Part shown: positions 87 to 14,509 of the stretch, piece after piece
Position numbering within the stretch: the stretch's first letter is position 1
Layout: every line of letters starts with the position of its first letter
Source of the DNA: Rickettsia typhi
GTDB taxonomy: Bacteria > Pseudomonadota > Alphaproteobacteria > Rickettsiales > Rickettsiaceae
DNA: 15,127 nucleotides
NCBI GenBank assembly: GCA_945883665.1
Contig: CAMCXV010000027.1
Span: 1 to 15,127 of the forward strand
Reading direction: 5' to 3'
Translations under genes and position numbers: made by a program
The notes under the pieces: model-generated
Told to the model about the DNA's origin: nothing
What the model saw: the letters and a program-made list of their open reading frames with translations, nothing else
Database searches by the model: none

Positions 87-137
87 GGGTCAATTTTGGA
101 CGCACATTAACCCATTTACTGGGTCAGTATTGCACGC
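87..137. mobile_element. Possible IS21-type terminal repeats
   Basis: Two 17-base direct repeats, 87-103 and 121-137, both begin GGGTCA and end ACGC and agree at 14 of 17 positions, 34 bp apart. A short ACCCA/TGGGT inverted pair lies between them, and a CCACC/GGTGG pair lies just outside at 74-88. Spaced imperfect copies of a GGGTCA-N-ACGC type motif at an element end are a known habit of IS21-family insertion sequences. No transposase gene is inside the window, so the body would have to lie to the left, or only a solo end remains. The right-hand repeat overlaps the last codons of the dehydrogenase. The family assignment rests on memory of such ends only. Confidence 0.35.
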
Positions 138-871
138 TTTTTAACAAATAGCTTTATTTTGTATGGAAGGATACGTAAAAATTTCATAATAAGCACAAAT
201 AAAGTAGGAAAATATAATTCAAACCTATTTGAATTTAGACCAGCAATAATTCTATCAGCTGCATCTTGTGAACTGATTATCATTGGCATTGTAAAATTGT
301 TCATGTCTGTCATAGATGTTTTTACAAAACCTGGGTTTATAATTTTGATATCTATATTTTCTGGTGATTCTGCGTAAAGACTTTCAACAAAATTAATTAA
401 ACCAGCTTTGCTAGAGCTATATGGTTGACCAATTGGTAATCCTGTATAACCAGCTACACTGCAACAAAAAACTATTTGAGATTTTGATTGTTTTTCTAAG
501 TAAGGTAGAACATTAATTGCTAAATTAATTGGAGCAATTAAGTTTACTTGCATTAACTGCTCAACAAAATCTTCTTTTATTTCTTTTATAGATTTAGGAT
601 CATATAGGGCAGCCATGAATATAATTCTATCTATAGTTTTGTATTGAGCGAAAACTTTAGTAATAGTCACTTTCATTGCTTTACTATCCGAAACGTCAAG
701 AGGGAATATTTGATTATTAACACCCAATTTATCACTTAGATCTGCTAGTAGCTCTTGATTTCTTGCAGAAAGAATAAGATTAGCGCCACATTTTGATAGT
801 CCAATAGCTAGCTGTCGACCAATACCGCTGCTAGCACCTATAATCCATATATTTTCATTGTTGAATTTCAT
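116..871 (-). CDS. Short-chain dehydrogenase/reductase (SDR)
   Basis: A 251-residue classical SDR, predicted to reduce or oxidise a carbonyl/hydroxyl with NAD(P)H. The nucleotide-binding GASSGIG is at residues 12-18, Asn110 is in place, and the catalytic triad Ser138, Tyr151, Lys155 is complete (YSSSK). The proline-glycine turn after the active site (NPGFVKT) is at 179-185. Residues about 218-245 are hydrophobic and basic and may lie against the membrane. The ATG has an AGGA-type ribosome site just upstream. The gene overlaps the end of the DUF3833 gene by 17 bases and is the last gene of the lipid cluster, so it probably acts on the same lipid product; the substrate is unknown. Its last residues (RAILTQ) are encoded by the IS-like repeat at 121-137, so the native C-terminus may have been replaced. 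Confidence 0.85.
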   Translation of the reverse strand: MKFNNENIWIIGASSGIGRQLAIGLSKCGANLILSARNQELLADLSDKLGVNNQIFPLDVSDSKAMKVTITKVFAQYKTIDRIIFMAALYDPKSIKEIKEDFVEQLMQVNLIAPINLAINVLPYLEKQSKSQIVFCCSVAGYTGLPIGQPYSSSKAGLINFVESLYAESPENIDIKIINPGFVKTSMTDMNNFTMPMIISSQDAADRIIAGLNSNRFELYFPTLFVLIMKFLRILPYKIKLFVKKRAILTQ

Positions 872-1409
872 TAATCCTATCTTTCTTTTGCATAAAGAGT
901 GTTAGTTCAGAAACTGTAATACCAAATTTTTTAATATAAGATCTGTTGATCACAACGCCATCATTCATTTGCCACATCCAATCATCAAATTTAACTCTAT
1001 ATGTAGAATTATCAACAGTTATATCCATGGAATATTTCCAGTTCATAGAAGAACCAGAAGATTCGCCTGAAGCATTACCTATAATGTCATGAGCACTACC
1101 TAAGTATGTGCCATCCTTATTTTGGACTATCTTCCAAGTTCTTTGTTGTTTTTTTCCATTATAAAATGTAAAATCTTCTTCGAGTTTTCCTATATTGCCT
1201 TCCCAACTACCAAACATATCAACATCAAATTTTGTTGTAACACGACCTCTCCAATCTTGGATTATTCCCCAAGCTTTAATGTTACCAGTAAAATATTCTT
1301 TTAGATTAAATTCAGGTTTGGTATTATTGTAATAATTCAAATCACTACTTTTACAACCGACTAACATACTCATTACCCCTATTATTGTTATAAGAAATAT
1401 TTTTTTCAT
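855..1409 (-). CDS. DUF3833 family lipoprotein
   Basis: A 184-residue protein with a lipoprotein signal peptide: MKK start, hydrophobic stretch 4-17 and a lipobox ending Gly18-Cys19. It should be lipidated at Cys19 and exposed to the periplasm. The mature part carries the pattern I associate with DUF3833: a YFTGNIKAWG block near 39-48, a WxGRVTTKF block near 53-61, a central FYNGKKQQRTW near 82-92, and DDWMWQMNDGVVINRS near 142-157, ending in a KFGITVSELTLFM strand. The biochemical role is unknown. It starts three bases after the MFS transporter stop and overlaps the SDR start, a layout typical of translational coupling. DUF3833 proteins are usually found in this same lipid-modification cluster, which suggests a role in handling modified lipid or in envelope stress. 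Confidence 0.82.
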   Translation of the reverse strand: MKKIFLITIIGVMSMLVGCKSSDLNYYNNTKPEFNLKEYFTGNIKAWGIIQDWRGRVTTKFDVDMFGSWEGNIGKLEEDFTFYNGKKQQRTWKIVQNKDGTYLGSAHDIIGNASGESSGSSMNWKYSMDITVDNSTYRVKFDDWMWQMNDGVVINRSYIKKFGITVSELTLFMQKKDRINEIQQ

Positions 1410-1412
1410 AAG

Positions 1413-2678
1413 CTATGTTTTTTTATTTATCCTAATACTGTAACTAATCATAGCATAAGATACAATCTTGATGGCGCATGGTACTATTGAATATAAAAAA
1501 CTAAGTAACAATAAAGTATCATTCTCATTTTTAACAGAATTTTGAAAACCAGCTTTATCAAGAAATAAAAGAACTATAGCAGATGAAATACCTAGTGATA
1601 ATTTTGCGAGAAACGCAAGTATACCAAATAATAAAGTTGCATTATCCTCTAGTTTTTGTTTGTGCATTTGATCGGCAAGAATTGATGGGGGTATTGCTAA
1701 GTCAGCACTAAAGGCTATACCAGATATAGCACATATTATTGCATATTGAACAAGATCTCCTTCTTTTAGAAAAAACGCCCAAACAAAGCTCATAGTTGCA
1801 ATAAGCATTGAAAAAGACCATGCTTTCTCTTTTCCTAATTTATTACTAAGATAATACCAAAGAATCATTCCTATTGCTCCAGATATGAAATACAGGAATA
1901 AAAATAACCCAGTGTAACTTGTTGCGTTCAAACAATATTTTATAAAAAATATTACAAGTACCGAGGGGATACTAGATGCCAGCATGCTAATAAAATATAC
2001 TTTAAAAAAGTAACGAGTTTCAACTGATAATGCTCTTATAAATTTTGTATCAAATTTATAAAGTTTGATATTACCATATGAAGTATTTCTTTTGCACCAA
2101 ATTCTTAAGGTTGTCATAGCTAAACACATGAAAATAAATAGTACAATGCTCATTATCAAAAATGTATTACTACTATTCATTTTAGACATTAACATAGCTG
2201 GTATTGATACCGCAAAAATTAAACCAATTAAATTACAACTCTCTCTGAAAGTGGTAATTTTTATTTGCTGCTTTTTATCTTGTGTCCACAGCCCGCCATA
2301 GGTATTAAGATTAATGGTCACAATACTATATGAACTGGTTGCTACTAACATCGCAATGAAAAACCAAATCTTTGCTGCTAAGATGTTAGGTTGAAATAGA
2401 GCGGAAAAACTAATTACTAAAGCAATTGAAGCAAGAAATATAATAGAATATCGGTATCTTGAATATTTATCACTCAGCATTCCAATAAAGGGGTCTTGCA
2501 CTGCTTCAATAGACCTGAGAGCCAATAAACTAAATCCTAAATAACTTAAAGATACGCCGTAATTTGCGTTATAATATTCTGGAGCATAGACATATAAAGG
2601 TATGCCAGCAAAAGAAGTAAAAATAGCTACAAAACTATAGTAAAATAAATCTAGTTTAGTGATCTTAACTTTATTCAT
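1413..2678 (-). CDS. MFS transporter (sugar:cation symporter-like)
   Basis: A 421-residue integral membrane protein with about twelve hydrophobic segments. Cytoplasmic loop 2-3 reads DPFIGMLSDKYSRYRY (about 62-77), the MFS signature as found in the glycoside-pentoside-hexuronide/MFS_2 group. The substrate cannot be read from sequence. Members of this group found in the amine oxidase-DUF1365-CFA cluster are conserved by position, so a lipid-related cargo is as plausible as a sugar; this is inference. The gene ends three bases before the DUF3833 start. It begins 127 bp after the methyltransferase stop, the only sizeable gap in the cluster. That gap is AT-rich, shows no ORF I would defend and no clear terminator, so cotranscription remains likely. 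No strong ribosome site precedes the ATG. Confidence 0.82.
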   Translation of the reverse strand: MNKVKITKLDLFYYSFVAIFTSFAGIPLYVYAPEYYNANYGVSLSYLGFSLLALRSIEAVQDPFIGMLSDKYSRYRYSIIFLASIALVISFSALFQPNILAAKIWFFIAMLVATSSYSIVTINLNTYGGLWTQDKKQQIKITTFRESCNLIGLIFAVSIPAMLMSKMNSSNTFLIMSIVLFIFMCLAMTTLRIWCKRNTSYGNIKLYKFDTKFIRALSVETRYFFKVYFISMLASSIPSVLVIFFIKYCLNATSYTGLFLFLYFISGAIGMILWYYLSNKLGKEKAWSFSMLIATMSFVWAFFLKEGDLVQYAIICAISGIAFSADLAIPPSILADQMHKQKLEDNATLLFGILAFLAKLSLGISSAIVLLFLDKAGFQNSVKNENDTLLLLSFLYSIVPCAIKIVSYAMISYSIRINKKT

Positions 2679-2805
2679 TTAGTACCACATCTTTAATATA
2701 TTATTATATTAGGATAAGTTTAGGATTGTTGATATATTCAATTATGCCTTTTTTGCCTTTGCAGAGTTCATAAATAGCAGGGGAGATAATAAAATTAATA
2801 AGAAT

Positions 2806-3966
2806 TTATTCATGTTTAATTTCTGCTTGGATCACATTTGTTCTATTTGATGTAAAGCTTGCAATACTTGCTGATAAATAAAATCTCCAAATTCTAATAA
2901 ACTTATCATCAAAATTTAGTAATCTGATTTTATCAAGGTTTTTTTCAAAATTTTCTAACCAAGAAGATAATGTTGTAGCATAAGAATTACCAAAAGCATA
3001 GTAATCTACTACTTGTAATCCAGATTTTTTTGCCTCAAGTTTAAATTGTTCTATAGATGGAAGCATACCTCCTGGAAAAATAAAGCTTCTTATCATATCG
3101 CCAGTTTTTCTATATTTCTCAAAATAGATCTCATCAATGGTAATAGTCTGAATTATTGCTTTACCTTTATTCTTGAGTAAAGACTTGATTTTATTGAAAT
3201 ATACAGGCCAAAATTTTTGACCCACTGCTTCAAACATTTCTATAGAAACGATGTTATCATACTTTCCATCTAATTTTCTATAATCTTGGTAAAGAATATT
3301 CGCTTTGCCTTCAACTATTTTTTTCGCATAAGCATATTGCTGATCTGAGATGGTTATTCCTTTAACATCATAATCATTTTGGTAAGTAGCTCTTTCTGCA
3401 AAACCACCCCATCCACACCCAATTTCTAATAAACTACCAGAAGATTTTTCTAATCTATCTATTATTCTATCATATTTGTTATATTGAGCTTGCTGGAGAT
3501 CTTCATTATCAATTTTATACAGAGCAGAAGAGTAAGTCATAGTTTTGTCAAGCCAAAGGGAATAAAATTCATTTCCTAAATCATAATGAGCGTGTATATT
3601 TCTTTTGCTGCCATTCAATGTGTTTGATCTAAGAGAATATAGAATCCTAGAAACAATATTGGATATTTTGCTACCGTAAACATAGCTATCAAGTGCACTA
3701 GCATTTTGCAGAGCAAATTTTAGTAGATCCGTTAAATTATCTGTATCCCACCAATTATCTCTATATGCTTCTGTTAGACCAACATCTCCTTTAGCGATCA
3801 AATTCGTGATTGTTCTATAATCATGAATAATCATAGTGGCGTTGATTCCTTCCTTGTTACCATCAAAACAATGCTCTTTTTGATCTGGTGTAATGAGTTT
3901 AAGTGTTCCAAATTCAATAGTATTTAAACTATCAATGAACCTATTAACTATTATTTTCTTTATCAT
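2806..3966 (-). CDS. CFA/UfaM-type phospholipid methyltransferase
   Basis: A SAM-dependent methyltransferase of the cyclopropane-fatty-acyl-phospholipid synthase family, which methylates double bonds of acyl chains in membrane phospholipid. Counting from the ATG at 3966 (386 residues), HYDLGNEFYSLWLD is at 127-140, the SAM-binding EIGCGWGG at 181-188, and EMFEAVG at 243-249. IFPGGMLPS follows at about 296-304. E. coli Cfa has FEHVG and HTIG at two conserved places; here they are FEAVG and QTIT (Gln273). This pattern fits the methylase subgroup in the singlet-oxygen cluster better than a true cyclopropane synthase. A TTG at 3978 would add four residues; I prefer the ATG, with a weak GAGA site upstream. 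It overlaps the DUF1365 gene end by 23 bases, suggesting translational coupling. Confidence 0.85.
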   Translation of the reverse strand: MIKKIIVNRFIDSLNTIEFGTLKLITPDQKEHCFDGNKEGINATMIIHDYRTITNLIAKGDVGLTEAYRDNWWDTDNLTDLLKFALQNASALDSYVYGSKISNIVSRILYSLRSNTLNGSKRNIHAHYDLGNEFYSLWLDKTMTYSSALYKIDNEDLQQAQYNKYDRIIDRLEKSSGSLLEIGCGWGGFAERATYQNDYDVKGITISDQQYAYAKKIVEGKANILYQDYRKLDGKYDNIVSIEMFEAVGQKFWPVYFNKIKSLLKNKGKAIIQTITIDEIYFEKYRKTGDMIRSFIFPGGMLPSIEQFKLEAKKSGLQVVDYYAFGNSYATTLSSWLENFEKNLDKIRLLNFDDKFIRIWRFYLSASIASFTSNRTNVIQAEIKHE

Positions 3967-4762
3967 ATTTGTTCTCAATATTAGTAGTAAGTGTTTCTTT
4001 TATTTGTGCTGGTTTGGGAATATACTTTATTCCTTTTAATTTTAATTTAAGAGCTTGCCAATGTATCAATATAATTGTCTTAATTGTGATAAGAGGATAT
4101 TTCCAAAAGAAATAATTAATATTTTTCTTCGATAAATCATGAAATTTACCAAAGATTGAGGTAACCAGTTTTTTGTTCCCATTATTATCAAAATAATCAA
4201 TCCAAGCCCCACAGCTATTATGCTGAAAAGAGAATCTAAAGCAATATTTTCCTTCTCTTTCCAAAAATGGTGATACATGAAAGATTTTATCTGCGTAAAT
4301 CAAATCTTTAGGTTTAATAATTTCATTATTCTTATGACTGCAAAAATAAAAATGCCTTTCACCAAAAGTATTATTAACCTCGCACAACACAGCACGAATT
4401 TTGTCTTTATCATCATTGCAAAACCAAAAACTCACTGGATTAAAAATATATCCCAATATTCTAGGCATTGTTAATAGATAAATTTCTTTGATTAAGTCGT
4501 TTAAACTATTATCATGCTTTATTAGTATATTTCTTATCCATAACTCACAGTTATTTTGATTGTTTTTTACTCCATGATCAGATTCGTAGAAACTCATCTT
4601 AGCAAATTTATTTATACTTAGTGTATTTGTAAGATTATTTGTTTGATTAATTAGCGATAACGGTAGAAGAAGATAGTAAGATTTATAATTGAATATATTC
4701 GTCTTCGGAAAAAATCTTTTATGATAAATATCAGCCAAAATTAATTTTGGTTCTACTGCCAT
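3944..4762 (-). CDS. DUF1365 family protein
   Basis: A 272-residue protein recognised by DUF1365 blocks: PRILGYIFNPVSFWFC near 106-121, LCEVNNTFGERHFYFC near 131-146, and KIFHVSPFLEREGKYCFRF near 163-181. The N-terminus (YHKRFFPKTNIFNYKSYYLLLPL) is also typical. It has no signal peptide; a hydrophobic stretch near 224-236 may touch the membrane. The catalytic role is not established for the family, but DUF1365 proteins nearly always sit between an FAD amine oxidase and a CFA-like methylase and have been linked to unusual fatty acid formation in Rhodobacter. Its start overlaps the end of the oxidase gene by ten bases and its end overlaps the methyltransferase start, so the three are probably translated as a coupled unit. 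Confidence 0.85.
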   Translation of the reverse strand: MAVEPKLILADIYHKRFFPKTNIFNYKSYYLLLPLSLINQTNNLTNTLSINKFAKMSFYESDHGVKNNQNNCELWIRNILIKHDNSLNDLIKEIYLLTMPRILGYIFNPVSFWFCNDDKDKIRAVLCEVNNTFGERHFYFCSHKNNEIIKPKDLIYADKIFHVSPFLEREGKYCFRFSFQHNSCGAWIDYFDNNGNKKLVTSIFGKFHDLSKKNINYFFWKYPLITIKTIILIHWQALKLKLKGIKYIPKPAQIKETLTTNIENKYDKENNS

Positions 4763-6006
4763 GGTACATCAACCTCAAATTTTTTAGAAAGATTAACTGC
4801 GCTTAATAAACCATCTTCATGAAAACCATATCGTTGCCAAGCTCCGCAATACCAAACCCTGCTATTTCCTTGTATCTTAAATATGTTTTTTTGAGCATCA
4901 ATAGCTTTTTGATTAAATACTGGATGCTCAAATTCATAAACATCATAAATCAAGTTTTTATTTGGTTCTTTAGCTGGGTTTAATGTTACTATAATAGGGG
5001 TAGAAGTATTTAAGCTCTGCAAATTGTTCATCCAGTAACTAAGGCTAATTTGCTGTTCTGATTTATTACTATTGGATAGATATACCCAACTCGACCATGC
5101 GCTCTTTTTTTTGGGCATAAAATTTATATCAGAATGCAGTACCATTAAGTTTTTTTGATAATTAATGCTTCCTAAAATATCTTGCTCAAGTTTAGTGGGA
5201 GATTCAAGTAGCTTTAGTGACGTATCAGAATGAGTTGCAAAAATCACATGATCAAATTCATCAATTATTTTATTTTTATGATGTATTTCAATACAATTAT
5301 TACCTCTTACTACTTTTTCTATCTCAGAATTTAGCTTTATTTGTTCTACAAAGCTTTGGCTAAATTTTTTTATATATTCTTTACTTCCCCCTTGAACAGT
5401 ATACCACTGGGGTTGATTAGCAATACTAAGTAATCCATGATTCTCAAAAAAATTAATAAATGTTATAGCTGGGAAATTTAACATTTCTTCAACTGAAGTA
5501 CTCCAAATAGAACCGCCCATAGGTAATAAATAATATTTTTTAAACCAATCACTTAATTTTAAAATTTCTAATAATTGTTTTAGATTAATAAAAGCATTTT
5601 GCTCAACGGTAATTTTTGCCTTTGAATTAAACCTAAATATATCGTAAATCATCCTCCAAAAAGAGAGTGATATTAAATTCTTTTTTTGGCTAAATAATGA
5701 AGAAATAGTATCAGTGCCGTATTCTATTTTTCCTTGGTTTATACTAACACCAAACGACATTGCGCTCTTTATTACGTTGATATCAAAATATTTGAAAAGT
5801 GATGTTAAAAGAGGGTAATTAATTTTATTAAAAAATATAAAACCTGTGTCTACAGGAATAATGGTACCATTGTTATTTATATCAACTGTCCTTGCATGGC
5901 CACCTATGTAATCATTTTTCTCAAAAAGAGTAATATTATGCTTTTTGTTTAGTAAGTATGAAATAGCAAGACCAGATATACCTGATCCTATAACAGCAAT
6001 TTTCAT
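4753..6006 (-). CDS. FAD-dependent amine oxidase-like protein
   Basis: A 417-residue flavoprotein of the NAD(P)/FAD-binding amine oxidase group (COG2907-like). The N-terminal Rossmann fold shows GSGISG at 7-12, the ribose-binding Glu29, and GGHART at 35-40. Further family blocks are WSTSVEEMLNFPA near 168-180, a VQGGSKEYIKKF segment near 203-214, an ATHSDTSLKLLE segment near 258-269, and C-terminal CGAWQRYGFHEDGLLSAV for flavin closure. It is predicted to desaturate or otherwise oxidise a lipid substrate rather than a free amine, because relatives sit with CFA-type methylases; the substrate is inferred. It is the first gene of the six-gene cluster. No good ribosome site precedes the ATG, and a perfect palindrome lies 25-51 bp upstream. 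Confidence 0.87.
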   Translation of the reverse strand: MKIAVIGSGISGLAISYLLNKKHNITLFEKNDYIGGHARTVDINNNGTIIPVDTGFIFFNKINYPLLTSLFKYFDINVIKSAMSFGVSINQGKIEYGTDTISSLFSQKKNLISLSFWRMIYDIFRFNSKAKITVEQNAFINLKQLLEILKLSDWFKKYYLLPMGGSIWSTSVEEMLNFPAITFINFFENHGLLSIANQPQWYTVQGGSKEYIKKFSQSFVEQIKLNSEIEKVVRGNNCIEIHHKNKIIDEFDHVIFATHSDTSLKLLESPTKLEQDILGSINYQKNLMVLHSDINFMPKKKSAWSSWVYLSNSNKSEQQISLSYWMNNLQSLNTSTPIIVTLNPAKEPNKNLIYDVYEFEHPVFNQKAIDAQKNIFKIQGNSRVWYCGAWQRYGFHEDGLLSAVNLSKKFEVDVPWQ

Positions 6007-6031
6007 TGTTTTGAGATTATTTTATATTATA

Positions 6032-6057
6032 TATACTAAGTTTTCAAACTTAGTATA
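6032..6057. promoter_or_regulatory. Perfect palindrome, candidate operator
   Basis: Two 12-base arms (6032-6043 and 6046-6057) around TC form a near-uninterrupted palindrome with core CTAAGTTT/AAACTTAG. It lies 25-51 bp before the start codon of the amine oxidase gene and touches a minus-strand TATAAT (6031-6026). A short run of T follows on the plus strand (6059-6064), which would make a terminator for rightward transcripts, but no plus-strand gene precedes it. A regulator-binding site or a 5'-leader hairpin for the lipid cluster is the more useful reading. Confidence 0.45.
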
Positions 6058-6204
6058 ATTTTTTCCTTTAGATAATCTAACAATTACCTAAAAAAAGACA
6101 AATTTTGGTATAAGATAATGATAAAATTACATATGTAAATCTATAAAATTTTTTATAAAATTTCTTTACTTACAAACCGACTATTTACTTATTAAAATAT
6201 ATTA

Positions 6205-6258
6205 ATTTTATGTAAAGTCAAATAGTGATATATTTTATGTAAAGTCAAATAGTGATAT
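6205..6258. repeat. 27-bp tandem direct repeat, two copies
   Basis: Copy one (6205-6231) and copy two (6232-6258) are identical over 27 bases, and one further base matches. The unit contains GTAAAGTCAAATAGTG. The perfect identity points to a recent duplication. It sits upstream of the lipid cluster on the minus strand, about 200-250 bp from the first start codon. Confidence 0.95.
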
Positions 6259-6303
6259 AGGTGAATAATAAAGACTTATCTAAATAATATAAGCAATGAA
6301 TTG

Positions 6304-6347
6304 AATATTTCATCTCTAACGCTGTTATACAAATTATATGAAATATT
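6304..6347 (-). repeat. Inverted repeat after murJ, possible weak terminator
   Basis: Arms AATATTTCAT (6304-6313) and ATGAAATATT (6338-6347) pair over ten bases with a 24-base loop. A looser outer pair around ATAGGTGA (near 6257-6269) and its complement (near 6346-6357) could enclose it. It lies 19 bp past the murJ stop. The stem is AT-rich and lacks a following T run on the minus strand, so a terminator role is only possible. Confidence 0.35.
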
Positions 6348-6365
6348 ATCACCTATCATATTCTT

Positions 6366-7907
6366 TTATACTGTTTTAGCTGTAATATGATGTTTTATCA
6401 AAAATAAATGAATTTTAAAAAAATATAGCATCAGAAAATAAACCATTATAGCAATAATAATTGTTATAAATAATATTTGAGCTTTAACAGCAAAGCTAAG
6501 AGAATAATATAAATCATGAAAAAAATAGTTAGAAATACATAATACTGCAATCATGAAAAAAGCACTGATAATTATTTTATAAATAGATTTTTTAGTTTTT
6601 CTTTGAATCTTAAAATTGCCATGAGATTTTGCATATTTACTTAATAAAAATATATTATACCAAGCCGATATGCTTGAACCAATAGCAATTCCAACATGAT
6701 CGAAAGGAATCATTAAAGCAATATTGAGAAAACTATTAAAAAGAAGAGAATAAACAGTTATGCGCATAGGGGTTTTTGTGTCGCCATTAGCATAAAAAAT
6801 AGGAGTCAGTATTTTTGCAATTACAAAGGCAGGTAGTCCTAGAGAAAATGCAGCAAGAGCATAGGCTGTTTTGCTAGTATCTTCTGCAACAAAAGCTCCT
6901 CTTTCGTATATTAGATGAATGATAGGTTTTGCCAATAAAAACAACCCTAATGTAGCTGGTATAGAAAGTGCCAGAGCTATGATTATAGCGTTGTTTTGTA
7001 AATTATTAGCCCCTTCAATATCTTTCTTTTTGTAAATTTGAGATAATTCTGGTAATAAAATTGTTCCAAAAGTTACGCCGATGATAGCAAGGGGTAATTG
7101 ATATAATCTCTCAGCATAAGATAAAATTGATACAGCCCCTGGGATGAAACTAGCAATAGATTGAGATATGAATAGATTAATTTGTTGTACGCCAGAGCTT
7201 ATTGCCGCTGGTCCCATGTTTTTAAGTAATTTTATTACTTCTGGATCGTCATAAAAAGCAAGAGAAGGTGAAAAAGTTAATTTTGCTCTGAGTAAACAAA
7301 ACCACATAAAAACAACTTGTAATATTCCTGCTAAAATTAGTGAATATGAAATAGCAAAATGAGATTTTAATTTTTCTTGCCATAGATATGTAAATAATAT
7401 AACGCAAACATTCATAATAATTGGAACAAAAGCAAAGGCGGCAAATTTTTTGACTGAGTTCAACATTCCACCAAATATTGCGCTAATCGAGATAAAAATT
7501 AGGTAAGGAGTTGTTATTCTACATAATAAAATTGCTAACTCATATTTTTCTTGAATTTTGTAAAAACCCGGAGCAATTAAAACCATAAGATATGGCATAA
7601 ATATTTGCATTAAGGTTGATAATATAATTAGAGAAATAAATAATAGAGTTAAAATTTCGCTACTAAATTTGCGAGCTGAGCTTTGAGATTCCAATAATTT
7701 TTGACTAAAAATAGGAATGAATACAACAGATAAAGCACCTTCTCCAAAAATTCTTCTAAATAAATTAGGAAATTTAAAAGCAATGTTTATGCAATCTGCA
7801 ATAGAACTTGAGCCAAAAACCGAGGCAACAAACAATTCTCTTGCTAATCCAAAAATTCTAGAAAGCATTGTAAAGAAAGCAACGATAATTCCAGATTTAA
7901 TCAACAT
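6366..7907 (-). CDS. murJ: Lipid II flippase MurJ (MviN family)
   Basis: A 513-residue polytopic membrane protein of the MOP superfamily that moves lipid II across the inner membrane for peptidoglycan synthesis. The N-terminal block SRIFGLARELFVASVFG (16-32) and KFPNLFRRIFGEGALS (45-60) match the MurJ signature, including Arg17, Arg23 and Arg52, the positions of the essential cavity arginines. About fourteen hydrophobic segments span the chain, and a positively charged loop (RKTKKSIYK) precedes the last pair. Length is typical. The start lies 57 bp after the pleD stop, so the gene may be read as the last member of a divK-pleD-murJ transcript. Its start codon is partly buried in a 14-bp inverted repeat (7906-7954). 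Presence of murJ implies that the organism makes at least some peptidoglycan. Confidence 0.93.
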   Translation of the reverse strand: MLIKSGIIVAFFTMLSRIFGLARELFVASVFGSSSIADCINIAFKFPNLFRRIFGEGALSVVFIPIFSQKLLESQSSARKFSSEILTLLFISLIILSTLMQIFMPYLMVLIAPGFYKIQEKYELAILLCRITTPYLIFISISAIFGGMLNSVKKFAAFAFVPIIMNVCVILFTYLWQEKLKSHFAISYSLILAGILQVVFMWFCLLRAKLTFSPSLAFYDDPEVIKLLKNMGPAAISSGVQQINLFISQSIASFIPGAVSILSYAERLYQLPLAIIGVTFGTILLPELSQIYKKKDIEGANNLQNNAIIIALALSIPATLGLFLLAKPIIHLIYERGAFVAEDTSKTAYALAAFSLGLPAFVIAKILTPIFYANGDTKTPMRITVYSLLFNSFLNIALMIPFDHVGIAIGSSISAWYNIFLLSKYAKSHGNFKIQRKTKKSIYKIIISAFFMIAVLCISNYFFHDLYYSLSFAVKAQILFITIIIAIMVYFLMLYFFKIHLFLIKHHITAKTV

Positions 7908-7954
7908 GTATATGTATTATTTTCTTTCATTGTAAAAACTTAATACATATACAT
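7906..7954 (-). promoter_or_regulatory. Hairpin covering the murJ start codon
   Basis: Perfect 14-base arms 7906-7919 and 7941-7954 enclose a 21-base loop. On the minus-strand message the 3' arm includes the first two bases of the murJ ATG, while the only purine-rich stretch that could serve as a ribosome site (GAAAG) is in the loop. The stem is almost all A-T. It could weakly restrain translation of MurJ in a readthrough transcript from pleD, or be an AT-rich coincidence. Confidence 0.4.
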
Positions 7955-7964
7955 ATATGAAAGA

Positions 7965-9323
7965 TTATTTAGTGGCAACCACTTTGTTTCTTCCCTTTTT
8001 TTTTGCTTCGTATAAAGCTTTATCAACTTTGCTAAGAAAATCTTCTGCAGTTTCCCCTTGATGATACTCTGCTACTCCTATTGATGTTGTTTTATGTATT
8101 CTTCCTATTGGATCTGGTATAGCAAATCCTGTTGCTTCTATAAGGAAACGTGTTTTTTCAGCAATTGGAAGAGCTCCCTGTAAATCAATATTATTAAGTA
8201 ACACTATAAATTCTTCACCACCATATCTTGCTACCACATCTGTCACTCTAAAAGAAGTCTTTAAAATAGAAGCTAGAGTTTTAAGAACTTCGTCTCCAGC
8301 AGGATGACCATAAGTATCGTTGACTTGTTTGAAGTGATCCATATCAAACATCATGATACAAAGCGGCTTCTTTGTTTCTTGGCTTTTTTGTACCATCTGT
8401 CTAACATCTATATCAAAATATCTTCTATTAAAAACGCCAGTTAAACCATCTTTTGTAGATAAATCAACGCTTTCTTCTAATTCAGTGCGTAGGTTTTCTT
8501 GATATTGTTTTCTCCTAAGTTGAGTTTTGACCCTAGCTTTTAATTCACTTTTGTCAATTGGATACATAAAATAATCATTAATACCAAGCTCCATACCCTT
8601 AATAACCATTGGTATATTTTCTTCGTCTGCAAGCATCATCAATACTGAATTTTTAAAATGAGGTTTTGAACGAAGAGTTACGGCAATTCGAAGTGGATCT
8701 ATAGTATCTATCTGACAACTTATGATAATAAGATCGGGAATAAATAATCCAAGAGAATCTATTTGATTTAAAGACGATAAAATTCTAACTTGACCACAAA
8801 GCTCAGAGAGATGATCTTTAACATTTCTAGCCTGAATTACATCGTCATCAAATAATAATAGTTTACTTTCTGAAAAATTATCTTTTAATTCTACAACAGT
8901 TGCACCAAGCTCAGTATTAATAGTATTTCTTAGTTTTAATTCATCAATTACAGCTTTCATTCGAGCCAAAGATCTTACTCTAGCAAAAAGAGCAATGTCA
9001 TTAATTGGTTTTGTTAAAAATTCATCGGCGCCAGCTTCCAAACCTTTTACCCTGTCTTCAAGTTCTGACAGAGCTGTTACCATGACAACTGGGATATGAT
9101 TAGTTTCTGGATTTTTTTTAATTTGCTTACATGTTTCAAATCCATCCATTTCAGGCATCATAACATCAAGCAAAACTATATCTATTTTATTTTGTGCTAA
9201 AATCTTAAGAGCTGAAACACCATTATTTGCAGTAAATACAGTGTAATATTCCGCTAATAACTTAGCTTCCAATAGTTTCACATTTGAGTCTAAATCATCT
9301 ACTACCAAAACTGTTGCGGTCAT
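7965..9323 (-). CDS. pleD: Diguanylate cyclase response regulator PleD
   Basis: A 452-residue REC-REC-GGDEF protein that makes cyclic di-GMP from GTP when phosphorylated; in Caulobacter it acts in polar development. REC1 (about 3-120) has the acidic pair Asp9-Asp10, phosphoacceptor Asp53 (LLDVMMPEMDG) and Lys105 (TKP). REC2 (about 153-270) lacks the acceptor Asp (IIISCQIDT), so it is a dimerisation adaptor as in Caulobacter. The cyclase domain (about 288-450) has GGEEF at 368-372 and an intact inhibitory site RVTD at 359-362, so product feedback should work. These numbers coincide with Caulobacter PleD. The gene starts 16 bp after divK and is surely cotranscribed with it. Confidence 0.96.
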   Translation of the reverse strand: MTATVLVVDDLDSNVKLLEAKLLAEYYTVFTANNGVSALKILAQNKIDIVLLDVMMPEMDGFETCKQIKKNPETNHIPVVMVTALSELEDRVKGLEAGADEFLTKPINDIALFARVRSLARMKAVIDELKLRNTINTELGATVVELKDNFSESKLLLFDDDVIQARNVKDHLSELCGQVRILSSLNQIDSLGLFIPDLIIISCQIDTIDPLRIAVTLRSKPHFKNSVLMMLADEENIPMVIKGMELGINDYFMYPIDKSELKARVKTQLRRKQYQENLRTELEESVDLSTKDGLTGVFNRRYFDIDVRQMVQKSQETKKPLCIMMFDMDHFKQVNDTYGHPAGDEVLKTLASILKTSFRVTDVVARYGGEEFIVLLNNIDLQGALPIAEKTRFLIEATGFAIPDPIGRIHKTTSIGVAEYHQGETAEDFLSKVDKALYEAKKKGRNKVVATK

Positions 9324-9339
9324 AATATTTAAATAATTT

Positions 9340-9711
9340 CTAGTTATTTATAAATTTTTCTATCGAAAGAAAAAATTTGTCAATAGAAAATGGCTTTGAC
9401 GTATACAAATCGCAGCCAGATTCTGAAATTCTTATTTCGTCATTCTTCATAGCAAATGCAGTTATAGCTATAATGGGTATTTTTTTAGTTTCTGGATTTT
9501 GTTTTAAATCAACTATCAAATCTAGACCTGAAATCTCGGATAATTGTATATCCATCAATATAAGATCTGGCTTCCAATCTATAACCATATTCACTACATT
9601 TACACCATCTCTTGAAACTAAGAATTCATGATTTTTGATCATAAGTAAATCGCAAAATAGCTTTAGATTTAATTCATTATCCTCTACAACTAAAACTTTT
9701 CCCATAACCAT
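9340..9711 (-). CDS. divK: Single-domain response regulator DivK
   Basis: A 123-residue stand-alone receiver domain that switches the activity of cell-cycle histidine kinases such as DivJ/PleC/DivL in alphaproteobacteria. Visible features are the acidic Glu10-Asp11, phosphoacceptor Asp54 in LILMDIQLSEISGLD, the conserved Thr in AITAFAMKNDE, and Lys in the SKP motif near the end. There is no output domain. The stretch ITAFAMK is highly characteristic of DivK. The start is ambiguous: Met1 or Met3, two codons apart, and neither has a clear ribosome site; Met3 would place the acceptor at residue 52. It is the first gene of a divK-pleD operon, the order found in Caulobacter. The kinases it would partner are not in the window. 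Confidence 0.92.
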   Translation of the reverse strand: MVMGKVLVVEDNELNLKLFCDLLMIKNHEFLVSRDGVNVVNMVIDWKPDLILMDIQLSEISGLDLIVDLKQNPETKKIPIIAITAFAMKNDEIRISESGCDLYTSKPFSIDKFFLSIEKFINN

Positions 9712-9810
9712 AATAATATATCAAATATTTTAATCATCATATAATAATAATTTAAATTATGATTCTAGTTATCTGTTAATAACTAAAAACTCCTATCTTC
9801 TAGGATTATA

Positions 9811-9852
9811 GAGTAAAGTAATAATATAATTGTAGCTTAATTTACTTTATTC
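9811..9852 (-). terminator. Inverted repeat between holC and divK
   Basis: Arms 9811-9821 and 9842-9852 pair over eleven positions with one G-T pair and a 20-base loop. It lies about 50 bp past the holC stop in the 193-bp gap before divK. No T run follows on the minus strand, so a terminator role for holC is tentative. It could equally be a site in the divK promoter region. Confidence 0.3.
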
Positions 9853-9904
9853 AGTGCCTAATACATTTCTTGTTGGGGATATGTGATGTTATTGTTGTGT
9901 AAAA

Positions 9905-10399
9905 TCAATAATTATTACTCTTCTCAATCCCCCAGCTATTATTTTCATCTTGTAGATAAGACTCAAAATTAAACTTATCTATTGAAGATTTATTAATTAT
10001 ATTTTTTATGTCTTGACTAGAAATCAAGCTCGAATGATCGTACAAAAAAATCAAACGTTCACATTTTGCAATAAGCAAATTTTCGTTAGATGCAATTATA
10101 GAAAGAATTTTACTTTCACTTGCATTAATAATCATCATGTTTGATGAGTTATTCAAATTCTTAAGCTCTGAACCAATTAAAATATGCTGTATTTCTGGTA
10201 ATAAATCATCTATAGTTGAATGTGGAATAAATTGTTTTTTAGAATATGTCCACAATACCCTGTCTAGTTCAACTGTATATTCTTTGCTGTTTGTATGGAC
10301 AAATAACTTAATACCGTTATGATAACATTTTTCTGCAAGCATACAAAATGCTTTTGGTAATCTTTCCTGTGTAGTTTTATAATAACTAATTTTAATCAT
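9905..10399 (-). CDS. holC: DNA polymerase III chi subunit HolC
   Basis: A 164-residue protein that, in the clamp-loader complex, links DNA polymerase III to single-stranded-DNA-binding protein and pairs with psi. Family features are the AFCMLAEKCYHNG helix (17-29), a KLFVHTNSKE strand (31-40), Leu49-Trp50 and the FIPH signature (57-60), followed by a PEIQHILIG strand (69-77). The first 120 residues cover the usual domain; the tail from about 125 is lysine- and asparagine-rich and extends it slightly beyond the usual length of about 145-150. The gene diverges from the glycosyltransferase gene, with only 21 bp between the two start codons, and stands 193 bp before divK. In Rickettsiales psi is usually not recognisable, so chi may work alone; that is an inference. 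Confidence 0.85.
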   Translation of the reverse strand: MIKISYYKTTQERLPKAFCMLAEKCYHNGIKLFVHTNSKEYTVELDRVLWTYSKKQFIPHSTIDDLLPEIQHILIGSELKNLNNSSNMMIINASESKILSIIASNENLLIAKCERLIFLYDHSSLISSQDIKNIINKSSIDKFNFESYLQDENNSWGIEKSNNY

Positions 10400-10420
10400 T
10401 TTTCTATAGTCAAGATTAAT

Positions 10421-11302
10421 ATGCTAAAATGCACTTATATAGTTCTTTTAAATAACAATGAAAGTAACATTCCTCTTTTAATAAAATCTTTAAAAGAAAT
10501 AAGTGGTTCCTTTAGAAAAGAGTTTATCATCATTGATGATGGTTCAAAAGACAATTCTTTAGAATTAGTAAAGTTAGCTGCTAATGACTTGCCTAAAACT
10601 ACCATTATTACTCAAAAAAATCATGGTTGGACAATTAGTATTAATAAAGCTATTACTTTAGCTAATGGAGATTATATTCATTTTGTAGAAGGAGGGGAGG
10701 TACTTTATCCTGAATCAACCACAATTATGATAGATTCATGTTTACAATTTGGTGCTGAAGTTTCGTGTGCAAAAACAAAAGAGATAAAAAATGAAAAAAA
10801 CTTAAATTTTAAAAAAAAATTTTCTTTAGAGTCAAAATTGATCCAATCTCCTATAAATGAAATTCTTTTGAATCAAATACCAGCTTTACGAAATATTGGT
10901 GGGTCTGGAACTTTAGTCAAAAGATCTCTCCTTGAAAAAGTAGGCAAAGCAGATATGAGTATATATTCTCAGAATATTTCTTTATCTCTTAGATGTGCGA
11001 AATATAGTAATTTTGTTTCTATTAACAATGATTTATCTTTTAAAATTAACAATGCCGCATCAGAAGAAAAGGAATTTGCATCTTATAATAATCTACGAAC
11101 AATATATAATTTTGCTATTAATCATCCTGATATTTTTCAAACACTTATCCCAGAAATGCTGGGAAATTTATCCTCTGAAGTATTGTCAAAAAAACTTAAA
11201 TTTTTATATTATTTAGAATCTAAAAAAGCAAAATACATTAAATTACCTACTCTAGCTAATGTTCTTGAGTTTTATAAAAGCGAATATGAAAAATTATTTT
11301 AA
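10421..11302 (+). CDS. Family 2 glycosyltransferase
   Basis: A 293-residue protein with an N-terminal GT-A domain: the strand YIVLLNNNESNIPLL (6-20), the nucleotide-binding EFIIIDDGSKDNS (34-46; Asp39-Asp40) and NHGWTISINKAITLANGDYIHFVEGGE (67-93). The usual DxD metal-binding motif after the fourth strand is replaced by EGGE (90-93), so metal and sugar-nucleotide binding may be altered or lost. A second half with SGTLVKRSLLEKVG (162-175) corresponds to the acceptor region. No membrane segment or signal is seen, so it is probably cytosolic or membrane-peripheral. Acceptor and sugar are unknown; surface polysaccharide or lipid glycosylation is the usual role. It is transcribed away from holC and ends 109 bp before groES. 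Confidence 0.8.
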   Translation: MLKCTYIVLLNNNESNIPLLIKSLKEISGSFRKEFIIIDDGSKDNSLELVKLAANDLPKTTIITQKNHGWTISINKAITLANGDYIHFVEGGEVLYPESTTIMIDSCLQFGAEVSCAKTKEIKNEKNLNFKKKFSLESKLIQSPINEILLNQIPALRNIGGSGTLVKRSLLEKVGKADMSIYSQNISLSLRCAKYSNFVSINNDLSFKINNAASEEKEFASYNNLRTIYNFAINHPDIFQTLIPEMLGNLSSEVLSKKLKFLYYLESKKAKYIKLPTLANVLEFYKSEYEKLF

Positions 11303-11309
11303 ATAAACA

Positions 11310-11340
11310 CTTGAACTATAGTTTTTAAAGCATATATACA
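11310..11340 (+). promoter_or_regulatory. Candidate groESL heat-shock promoter
   Basis: CTTGAA at 11310-11315 matches the -35 core used by RpoH (sigma-32). CATATATA begins 15 bp later at 11331. The same DNA also reads as a vegetative promoter, TTGAAC (11311-11316), 18 bp, TATACA (11335-11340). Transcription would start near 11347, giving a leader of about 65 bases before groES. The -10 lacks the CCCC of the E. coli RpoH consensus, as expected in an AT-rich genome. Confidence 0.5.
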
Positions 11341-11353
11341 GAACTACAAACCT

Positions 11354-11384
11354 AGTACTCAAACTAAAAAATTTGAGTGTTTTT
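11354..11384 (+). terminator. Hairpin with T-run in the groES leader
   Basis: ACTCAAA (11357-11363) pairs with TTTGAGT (11372-11378) over seven bases and can extend three more with two G-T pairs. The loop is eight bases, and TTTTT follows at 11380-11384. It resembles a factor-independent terminator for the glycosyltransferase gene, but it lies downstream of the candidate groESL promoter and ends 28 bp before the groES ATG. It may therefore also act inside the groESL leader as an attenuator or temperature-sensitive fold. Confidence 0.5.
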
Positions 11385-11411
11385 AGTAAACTTAAAATAA
11401 TGAGGTTCAAA

Positions 11412-11699
11412 ATGAATTTTATACCATTACATGATCGTGTTGCAATTAAGCCTATAGATCAAGAGGAAAAAACAGTTGGTGGCATAATTATTCCTGATAG
11501 CGCTAAAGAAAAACCTATGCAAGGGAAAGTTATTGCAGTTGGAAAAGGTTCTAAAGATAAGGATGGTAAGCTTATACCACTTGATGTAAAAATAGGTGAT
11601 AAAGTTTTATATGGTAAATGGGGCGGAACAGAAGTGAAAGTTGATGGCCAAGAGTTCATTATCATGAAAGAAACAGATATTATGGGAATAATAAACTAA
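11412..11699 (+). CDS. groES: Co-chaperonin GroES
   Basis: A 95-residue co-chaperonin that caps GroEL as a heptamer during protein folding in the cytosol. It starts [13 protein letters not shown] and carries the mobile loop [18 protein letters not shown]. The conserved GKVIAVGKG strand and [19 protein letters not shown] follow, ending in the usual IMGIIN. An upstream in-frame TTG at 11373 would add 13 residues, but the ATG at 11412 has a GAGG ribosome site six bases before it and gives the family length, so I use it. It lies 36 bp before groEL, forming the standard groESL operon. The upstream region shows a CTTGAA-type promoter and a leader hairpin; no CIRCE element is present. Confidence 0.97.
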
Positions 11700-11711
11700 T
11701 TAATTAAGTAA

Positions 11712-13385
<1,674 letters not shown>

Positions 13386-13391
13386 AAAACC

Positions 13392-13409
13392 TATCAATAC
13401 ATATTGATA
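13392..13409 (+). repeat. 8-bp palindrome after groEL
   Basis: TATCAATA (13392-13399) and TATTGATA (13402-13409) are exact inverse copies around CA, starting seven bases after the groEL stop. The two-base loop makes a stable hairpin unlikely at full length, but the pair may help stop decay or mark the transcript end together with the stronger hairpin just downstream. Confidence 0.45.
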
Positions 13410-13412
13410 CTA

Positions 13413-13453
13413 TTGTGGTAAGGGGATTAAGATTTTTATCCCCCTTATCACAA
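13413..13453 (+). terminator. Probable groESL transcription terminator
   Basis: Arms 13413-13427 and 13438-13453 pair over about fifteen positions with one G-T pair and one bulged C, around a ten-base loop (13428-13437). The stem centre is GGGGAT/ATCCCC, one of the few GC-rich stems in the window. The tail is AT-rich but has no long T run, so it is an imperfect factor-independent terminator. Its position just past the groESL operon supports the role. Confidence 0.65.
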
Positions 13454-13555
13454 CCATAAATTTAAAATTTTGTAAGTTATATAAGATCGATTTGCTATTT
13501 AGTTCAATCTATCTCGCCTTGTGCTTTAAATGAATAAAAAGAAAGAGGAGAATAC

Positions 13556-14509
13556 ATGAATAGTTTTACTAATTTCTCAGTTATTGGAAGTGGAAGTTGG
13601 GGTAGTGCAATTGCCTGTCATTTATCAAGAATACATCAATCAGTCAAAATATATTCTGATTCGCAAGAGATAGCCGATGAAATAAATAATAAAAAGCTTA
13701 ATAGTAAGTATCTTGGCTCCATTACTTTAACAAGTAATTTGATTGCAACAAATCAAATTGAAGAAATCTTAGATTCGGAAATAATATTTATTGCAGTTCC
13801 TTCCTCTGCCTTCGGAAATGTATTAGAACAATTAAAACAATATAATATTCCGTCAACCACCATTTTTGTTATAGCTACTAAAGGAATTTCTTCTGAACCA
13901 ATAGAGCTTCTTTCTGAAAAATTTAAAAGAGAGCGAGCGAATCCTTTTGCTTTTTTTTCTGGTCCAAATTTTGCCAATGAAGTAGCTTTAGAAAAATTCA
14001 CAAGTGCGACTATTTCTTCAGAAGATTTACTTCTTGCCAATGATTTAGCAAAGAATTTATCAACGCCATATTTTGAGATTTCTACCACAGATGATATTAT
14101 AACTATTCAAATAGCATCTATTGTAAAAAATATAGTAGCTATAAAAAGCGGTATTTTAGAGGCTAGTGATGCTGGGGATAATGCAAAAGCATGGCTTATT
14201 ACCAAAGCTTTACAAGAAATATCGCTAATTTCAAAGGCAATGGGTGGTAGACAAGAAACTCTATTAGAGCCAGCGGTAATTGGGGATTTAATTTTGACAA
14301 GCTATTCTCAAAATTCACGCAATACTAAATTTGGCTTCCTAATGCATCAAAATCAATATTCTAAAGATTTTATTTCTTCCTATCCGATATTAGTGGAGGG
14401 CGCTGAAGCTGCAAAACTCATAGAATCTTTTGTTCTAAAATATAATATAAAATTATCTGATCTCCCTATAATTAACTCCGTGGTTAAAGCAATACACAAT
14501 GCTAAATGA
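13556..14509 (+). CDS. gpsA: Glycerol-3-phosphate dehydrogenase [NAD(P)+]
   Basis: A 317-residue cytosolic enzyme that reduces dihydroxyacetone phosphate to sn-glycerol-3-phosphate, the backbone of phospholipids. The Rossmann loop GSGSWGSA is at 11-18, VPSSAF at 81-86, the catalytic ATKG with Lys109 at 107-110, GPNFA at 136-140, the conserved Lys191-Asn192 (VKNIVAIKSG), GD at 243-244 and the glycerol-phosphate-binding SRN at 254-256 (SRNTKFG). All essential residues are visible. Length is slightly below the 330-340 typical of the family because the C-terminal helix is short. An AGAGGAG ribosome site sits five bases before the ATG. It follows groEL after 170 bp that include a terminator, so it probably has its own promoter. 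Confidence 0.95.
   Translation: MNSFTNFSVIGSGSWGSAIACHLSRIHQSVKIYSDSQEIADEINNKKLNSKYLGSITLTSNLIATNQIEEILDSEIIFIAVPSSAFGNVLEQLKQYNIPSTTIFVIATKGISSEPIELLSEKFKRERANPFAFFSGPNFANEVALEKFTSATISSEDLLLANDLAKNLSTPYFEISTTDDIITIQIASIVKNIVAIKSGILEASDAGDNAKAWLITKALQEISLISKAMGGRQETLLEPAVIGDLILTSYSQNSRNTKFGFLMHQNQYSKDFISSYPILVEGAEAAKLIESFVLKYNIKLSDLPIINSVVKAIHNAK

Follow-up and report, generated by a model that had tools for sequence, protein, structure and literature searches.

The closest described counterparts of the locus considered here, a predicted furan fatty acid (ufa) gene cluster at positions 116 to 6006 of contig CAMCXV010000027.1 (the window, i.e. the whole analysed stretch of 15,127 nucleotides), come from Rhodobacter sphaeroides and Rhodopseudomonas palustris. 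In the former, according to the available part of the published account (PMC7380195), the genes named as required are ufaM, ufaD and ufaO: UfaM methylates cis-vaccenate, UfaD (RSP1091) is a desaturase, and UfaO (RSP1090), a DUF1365 protein, is thought to insert O2 into the furan ring. Single deletions of the three genes RSP1087, RSP1088 and RSP1089 left the fatty acids unaltered there; ufaM (RSP2144) is located away from ufaD-ufaO, and the regulon is under sigmaE-ChrR. In the free-living R. palustris, the same text reports three genes with consecutive numbers, RPA2571-2570-2569, as sufficient for furan acid, and a further methylase, FufM, is also present in this organism. A Halomonas ufaM adjoining ufaD and ufaO yielded a furan acid intermediate in Escherichia coli, as described in the accessible portion of PMC12089945. 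Comparable enzymes are also found in Arabidopsis, where AT3G23510, a UFAMD/CPS fusion, resembles UfaM plus UfaD and AT1G30130, a DUF1365 protein, resembles UfaO (PMC10940516, excerpted text); these differ in being eukaryotic and in having the UfaD and UfaM parts fused in one protein.

Pathway core and its conservation

The cluster of the window comprises six open reading frames (ORFs), all on the minus strand, which in 5' to 3' order encode a UfaD-like flavin adenine dinucleotide (FAD) enzyme, a DUF1365 protein, a CMAS methylase, an MFS_2 protein of the major facilitator superfamily (MFS), a DUF3833 protein and a short-chain dehydrogenase (SDR). We interpret it, with a probability of about 0.72, as a ufa operon gained by horizontal transfer and carried on the chromosome of an endosymbiont of the family Rickettsiaceae, within the 'Candidatus Megaira' clade. 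The first gene, ufaD (4753..6006), codes for a putative FAD amine-oxidase-like fatty acyl desaturase (Pfam Amino_oxidase, 2e-14, above cut-off), and ufaO (3944..4762) for a member of DUF1365 (Pfam, 1.4e-71), the family of the oxygenase to which furan-ring closure is attributed in R. sphaeroides and R. palustris. The third, ufaM (2806..3966), encodes a putative S-adenosylmethionine-dependent acyl methylase of the cyclopropane synthase superfamily (Pfam CMAS, 2.7e-76); its start was set to the ATG at 3966, matching the ORF of the related genome G185, the ORF listing giving a TTG at 3978. Homologues of UfaD, UfaO and UfaM are thus all present, by family and by cluster homology, in an order identical to that of RPA2571-RPA2569, and the core of the cluster is, at this level, the predicted three-enzyme furan fatty acid pathway ufaD-ufaO-ufaM. 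A furan fatty acid cluster had been proposed in a preliminary description of this DNA, and both the gene families and the R. palustris gene order bear this out. Its label 'oxidase' for the first gene gives way to that of UfaD, the desaturase of R. sphaeroides in the available part of PMC7380195.

The same description regarded such a cluster as unexpected in an intracellular bacterium, but DUF1365 is present in 81 of 343 genomes of Rickettsiales, and an O2-dependent pathway poses no paradox in an aerobic intracellular bacterium. DUF1365 loci were read in 75 of these genomes, the other six carriers being left out, and many loci were cut by contig ends. The trio ufaD, ufaO and ufaM lies close together on the same strand in 72 of the 75, and a complete set of seven cluster genes (the six above plus a chalcone-isomerase-like gene discussed below) in 36, which excludes chance clustering. 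The chalcone-isomerase-like gene itself is found on the same strand near ufaO in 46 of the 75. Across the order as a whole the cluster is common, but within Rickettsiaceae its occurrence is sporadic: of the 62 listed genomes whose MurJ is 54% or more identical to that of the window, three (G172, G178 and G186) carry DUF1365, and a fourth carrier is G185, for which no MurJ was found. No DUF1365 match was found in G183 or G184.

Near-invariant columns, defined as those at least 98% identical among cluster homologues (n=122 for UfaD and 123 each for UfaO and UfaM), are kept by the window in 50 of 51 cases in UfaD, 28 of 28 in UfaO and 59 of 59 in UfaM, in total 137 of 138; by this test the conserved, presumably catalytic positions of the furan pathway enzymes are intact. 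The AlphaFold model of UfaO (pLDDT 84) is made up of beta strands and one long helix. The ratio of nonsynonymous to synonymous substitution rates (dN/dS, by the Nei-Gojobori method) between the window and G185 is 0.115 for UfaO, 0.111 for UfaM, 0.20 for the first 160 codons of UfaD and 0.24 for part of the MFS gene, compared with 0.12 for MurJ against G183 and 0.036 for GroEL. Judged by these ratios, purifying selection acts strongly on ufaO and ufaM. Among the best 120 UfaD matches listed, 13 are full-length relatives of 417-418 residues with 83-96% identity, the next full-length ones being at most 59% identical. The low dN/dS and the retention of all but one near-invariant position make it likely that the window encodes a working pathway.

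The window UfaM belongs to the same superfamily as the canonical bacterial cyclopropane synthases (PDB 6bqc, 5z9o and 7qos; E = 2e-47 to 1e-50). The E. coli residues used for comparison, including the bicarbonate ligands and Cys139, are those given in the available parts of PMC11387697 and PMC3132707. In TTG-start numbering UfaM keeps Glu250, Ile279 and Tyr333, corresponding to E. coli Glu239, Ile268 and Tyr317. The equivalent of His266 is Gln277, and Gln is found here in 123 of 123 homologues; the position of Cys139 is a Ser in the window and is not Cys in 122 of 123. Of the canonical set Glu239, His266, Tyr317 and Cys139, the Glu and Tyr are hence kept and the other two replaced. These changes, like the partnership with ufaD and ufaO, distinguish the window enzyme from canonical cyclopropane synthases, but its product cannot be read from the sequence, because two of three cotton cyclopropane synthases also have Gln at the His266 position (PMC3132707, available text).

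Host placement and gene trees

A Rickettsiales host had been suspected, and the markers of the window agree with this and narrow it. Across the 343 genomes of the order searched, its MurJ is 77% identical to that of G183 and of G184 and 75% to that of G186, others among the matches listed being at most 66%. G183 (locus L167) is taken by us to be MegNEIS296, a symbiont of the alga Mesostigma viride according to the accessible portion of PMC9098888; the loci of G184, G186 and G185 are L168, L169 and L171. GroEL, for which 28 of 30 genomes gave a match, is 94% identical in G183, G184 and G186; elsewhere long matches reach at most 88%, and G185 has a 35-residue piece alone, also at 94%. In a tree of this one marker gene the window lies beside G186, G183 and G184 (support 100/99), and this group falls inside an 18-row set (100/100) whose label, Rickettsiaceae, is our reading of its members. 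GpsA is 84% identical in G185, the nearest by this protein of the seven genomes searched, 72-73% in G183, G184 and G186, and 50% in three others. The order of seven genes from groEL to murJ is conserved with MegNEIS296. On these markers the host belongs in Rickettsiaceae, where its neighbours are 'Ca. Megaira', which live in symbiosis with algae and ciliates, and its lifestyle is presumably intracellular like that of its kin.

A UfaD+UfaO+UfaM tree was built from 36 rows picked from 123, under LG and the C20 mixture model, and in it the window joins only G185 (100/100), with which it shares 88-90% identity in the three enzymes and 74% in part of the MFS protein. The G186 copy pairs with that of G151 (100/100), and G347 joins them next (at least 100/99); judged by GroEL, neither G151 nor G347 belongs to the Rickettsiaceae set. 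Between G186 and the window, identity is 94% for GroEL versus just 47-57% for the three Ufa proteins. Approximately unbiased (AU) tests reject a single clade of window, G185 and G186 (p-AU 6e-7 under LG; also rejected under C20, with a far lower p whose size is not to be trusted), and a single clade of all five Rickettsiaceae rows (p-AU 5e-5, LG only). The groups tested follow host kinship, but the first trees had already been seen when they were set. With one inherited copy rejected by the topology tests, repeated horizontal acquisition is the best reading, which suggests that such symbionts acquired the ufa set more than once by gene transfer; acquisition from elsewhere, as raised in the preliminary description, is in line with this. 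At least two cluster lineages are seen at three sites within one closely related group. Deeper placements in the Ufa trees, including the window's own sister, are weak and model-dependent. The cluster of L003, from a metagenome-assembled genome labelled Cytophagales (Bacteroidota), falls among the Rickettsiales-type ones, by transfer or mis-binning.

Accessory genes, genomic sites and regulation

Downstream of ufaM are an MFS_2 (GPH-like) transporter (1413..2678; Pfam MFS_2, 1e-41, NCBIfam gph below cut-off), a DUF3833 protein with an apparent lipoprotein-type signal, as read from its sequence (855..1409; Pfam, 6.8e-66), and an SDR (116..871; Pfam adh_short, 2.4e-40), the last cluster gene within the window. 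By order and length, the three genes of R. sphaeroides RSP1091-1087 that accompany ufaD and ufaO would correspond to them. The proposal tying the cluster as a whole to furan acids needs qualifying, since these three match R. sphaeroides genes that the available part of PMC7380195 gives as dispensable for furan acid synthesis. The placement, strand and families of the six genes are as had been described. Neighbouring ends indeed share bases or lie only a few bases apart (855-871, 1409/1413, 3944-3966 if ufaM begins at the ATG, and 4753-4762), the sole exception being the 127 bp that separate ufaM from the MFS gene. This gap contains the start of a seventh cluster gene, intact in G185 (L171 8241-8756), where it is a Chalcone_3 protein (PF16036) barely above the family cut-off (28.5 vs 27 bits). 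Alignment with that gene delimits a remnant at 2679..2813 of the minus strand, in which the signal-peptide end is left and the rest is mostly deleted; it is most likely that the ancestral cluster comprised seven genes, one of which was lost in the window.

Upstream of ufaD, a minus-strand stretch at 6007..6131 is common to the window and the G185 cluster by blastn (window 5524-6131 against L171 5597-4990, 86%), the shared DNA stopping 125 bp upstream of ufaD and the genomes diverging past 6131; a stricter short-word search of the murJ-ufaD gap had missed it. The junction at 6132..6392 has no blastn match in L167, L168, L169 or L171, and two perfect 27-bp tandem copies lie in this unmatched DNA, at 6205-6258. 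It is followed by the murJ-pleD-divK-holC-GT2-groES-groEL block (6393..13385), which by synteny and families is collinear with that of 'Ca. Megaira' MegNEIS296. In G184, pleD (L168 10682-12806) is matched at its two ends only, leaving about 1.3 kb in the middle without a match, and the glycosyltransferase gene (L168 13498-14369) in two pieces.

The genes after murJ are traX and rpsP in MegNEIS296, G184, G186, G193 and G200 (L167, L168, L169, L174 and L175), whereas the window has the cluster in their place. The G185 cluster comes after mlaD, and apart from it the surrounding block matches G183 in gene order; a transposase (rve) remnant, matching below Pfam cut-offs, lies between mlaD and the cluster. 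In G186 it lies at rimM, and the 86% DNA identity to G183 ends just past rimM, before the cluster; this contig is of Megaira type (transporter 94% and RimM 88% identical to the G183 neighbours), and G186, which has two rimM copies, may be a bin of two strains. G186 also has a phage-type integrase gene just after rpsP, near the murJ-traX-rpsP site (L169 9572-10372). An epimerase with a DUF1731 end (PF01370, PF08338) adjoins ufaD at L170 7654-8571 and L172 11348-12250, in two Rickettsiaceae genomes with different cluster lineages; the window has murJ at this position. No transposase, integrase or target duplication was seen at the edges of the window cluster, whose left end is just 115 bp past the SDR gene. 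At the other end of the block, groEL is followed by gpsA in the window (11736-14509), and by recG in MegNEIS296 (L167), with gpsA about 730 kb away, a second break in synteny. With gene order differing from G183 at both ends, insertion is not distinguishable from rearrangement.

The usual companions of the cluster had been said to be missing from the window. This stands for the window, where none of the ORFs of at least 90 residues belongs to the ChrR, RpoE or photolyase families checked, and for ChrR (TIGR02451) in relatives: it was over cut-off in 0 of 80 genomes (78 DUF1365-positive ones plus G183 and G184) with a positive Caulobacter control, RpoE not having been searched for in them. One of the 80, G350, had weak sub-threshold ChrR matches. 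This would set the relatives apart from R. sphaeroides and its sigmaE-ChrR regulon, and expression of the cluster is probably constitutive or otherwise controlled. In the relatives the claim does not extend to photolyase, which occurs in 70 of the 80 genomes, G185 and MegNEIS296 included, and in 33 of 77 further ones too, and so is no specific companion of the cluster.

Competing explanations and biological significance

The furan product and its quenching role are carried over by us, as an expectation, from the work on R. sphaeroides and R. palustris. UfaM would methylate cis-vaccenoyl chains of finished phospholipids; desaturation of the methylated product by UfaD would give a conjugated diene, after which UfaO would close the furan ring using O2. 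In the symbiont membrane the resulting furan lipid might sacrificially quench singlet oxygen and other oxidants. It is conceivable, though unlikely, that the end product is not a furan but some other modified chain, for instance a cyclopropane or a simple methyl-branched acid. The His-to-Gln change common to two of three cotton enzymes would agree with this, as would the 31% of catalytic efficiency retained by the E. coli Cys139Ser mutant (PMC3132707, available part) and the fact that the functions of DUF1365 proteins beyond the furan pathway are untested (PMC7380195, available part). It is opposed by the grouping of the three pathway enzymes in the order of the R. palustris genes that suffice for furan acid, by the Halomonas result, and by the departures at His266 and Cys139, residues called strictly conserved in non-plant cyclopropane synthases in the accessible literature. 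Decay of the operon to the point where the product is no longer made is less probable still: the remnant of the chalcone-isomerase-like gene and the split ufaD of G185 speak for it, against which stand the low dN/dS, the near-invariant positions, the 13 close full-length UfaD relatives and the absence of the chalcone-isomerase-like gene from those named as required in R. sphaeroides in the available part of PMC7380195.

Inheritance from a Rickettsiales ancestor with loss in most Rickettsiaceae would accord with the frequency of DUF1365 in the order, which makes ancestral presence there possible; given the rejected clades and the disparity between GroEL and Ufa identities in G186, it is equally improbable. 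An assembly chimera at the murJ-cluster junction, joining a Megaira-type contig to another bacterium, is the least credible alternative, as the same cluster lies beside genes in MegNEIS296 order in G185. Moreover, base composition is similar in cluster and flank (29.5% G+C vs 30.7%, or 28.7% without groESL), as had been noted earlier. Several points nevertheless weigh against a horizontally acquired, working operon in a Megaira-type host: the host placement comes from single-gene results (the GroEL tree, MurJ and GpsA identities, and gene order); many branchings in the Ufa trees are weak, and the rows differ in composition; the groEL-gpsA break means that genome rearrangement may account for the cluster site; and the gene lost in the window and the ufaD split in G185 indicate that decay of the operon may be under way in some of the clade's members.

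The chemistry of this pathway is already known; the new element is that it appears to have reached protist-type endosymbionts repeatedly, unaccompanied by the ChrR switch. We tentatively propose, as a rather doubtful extension, that algal and ciliate endosymbionts repeatedly gain a portable antioxidant operon without the singlet-oxygen switch, and that its furan lipids protect the symbiont, and perhaps the host, from oxidants of the chloroplast or of ingested algae. If true, this would be a case of photoprotection gained by gene transfer in a lineage of obligate intracellular bacteria; to our knowledge, the gain of a multi-gene lipid pathway is not expected in reduced intracellular genomes. 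The presence of different operon versions at three sites in one close group and their absence from MegNEIS296 suggest selection in some hosts, and lead to a testable chemical prediction of furan lipids in certain Megaira-type symbionts. A ufa pathway that apparently operates without ChrR would also allow the lipid's own role to be separated from its role in ChrR signalling.

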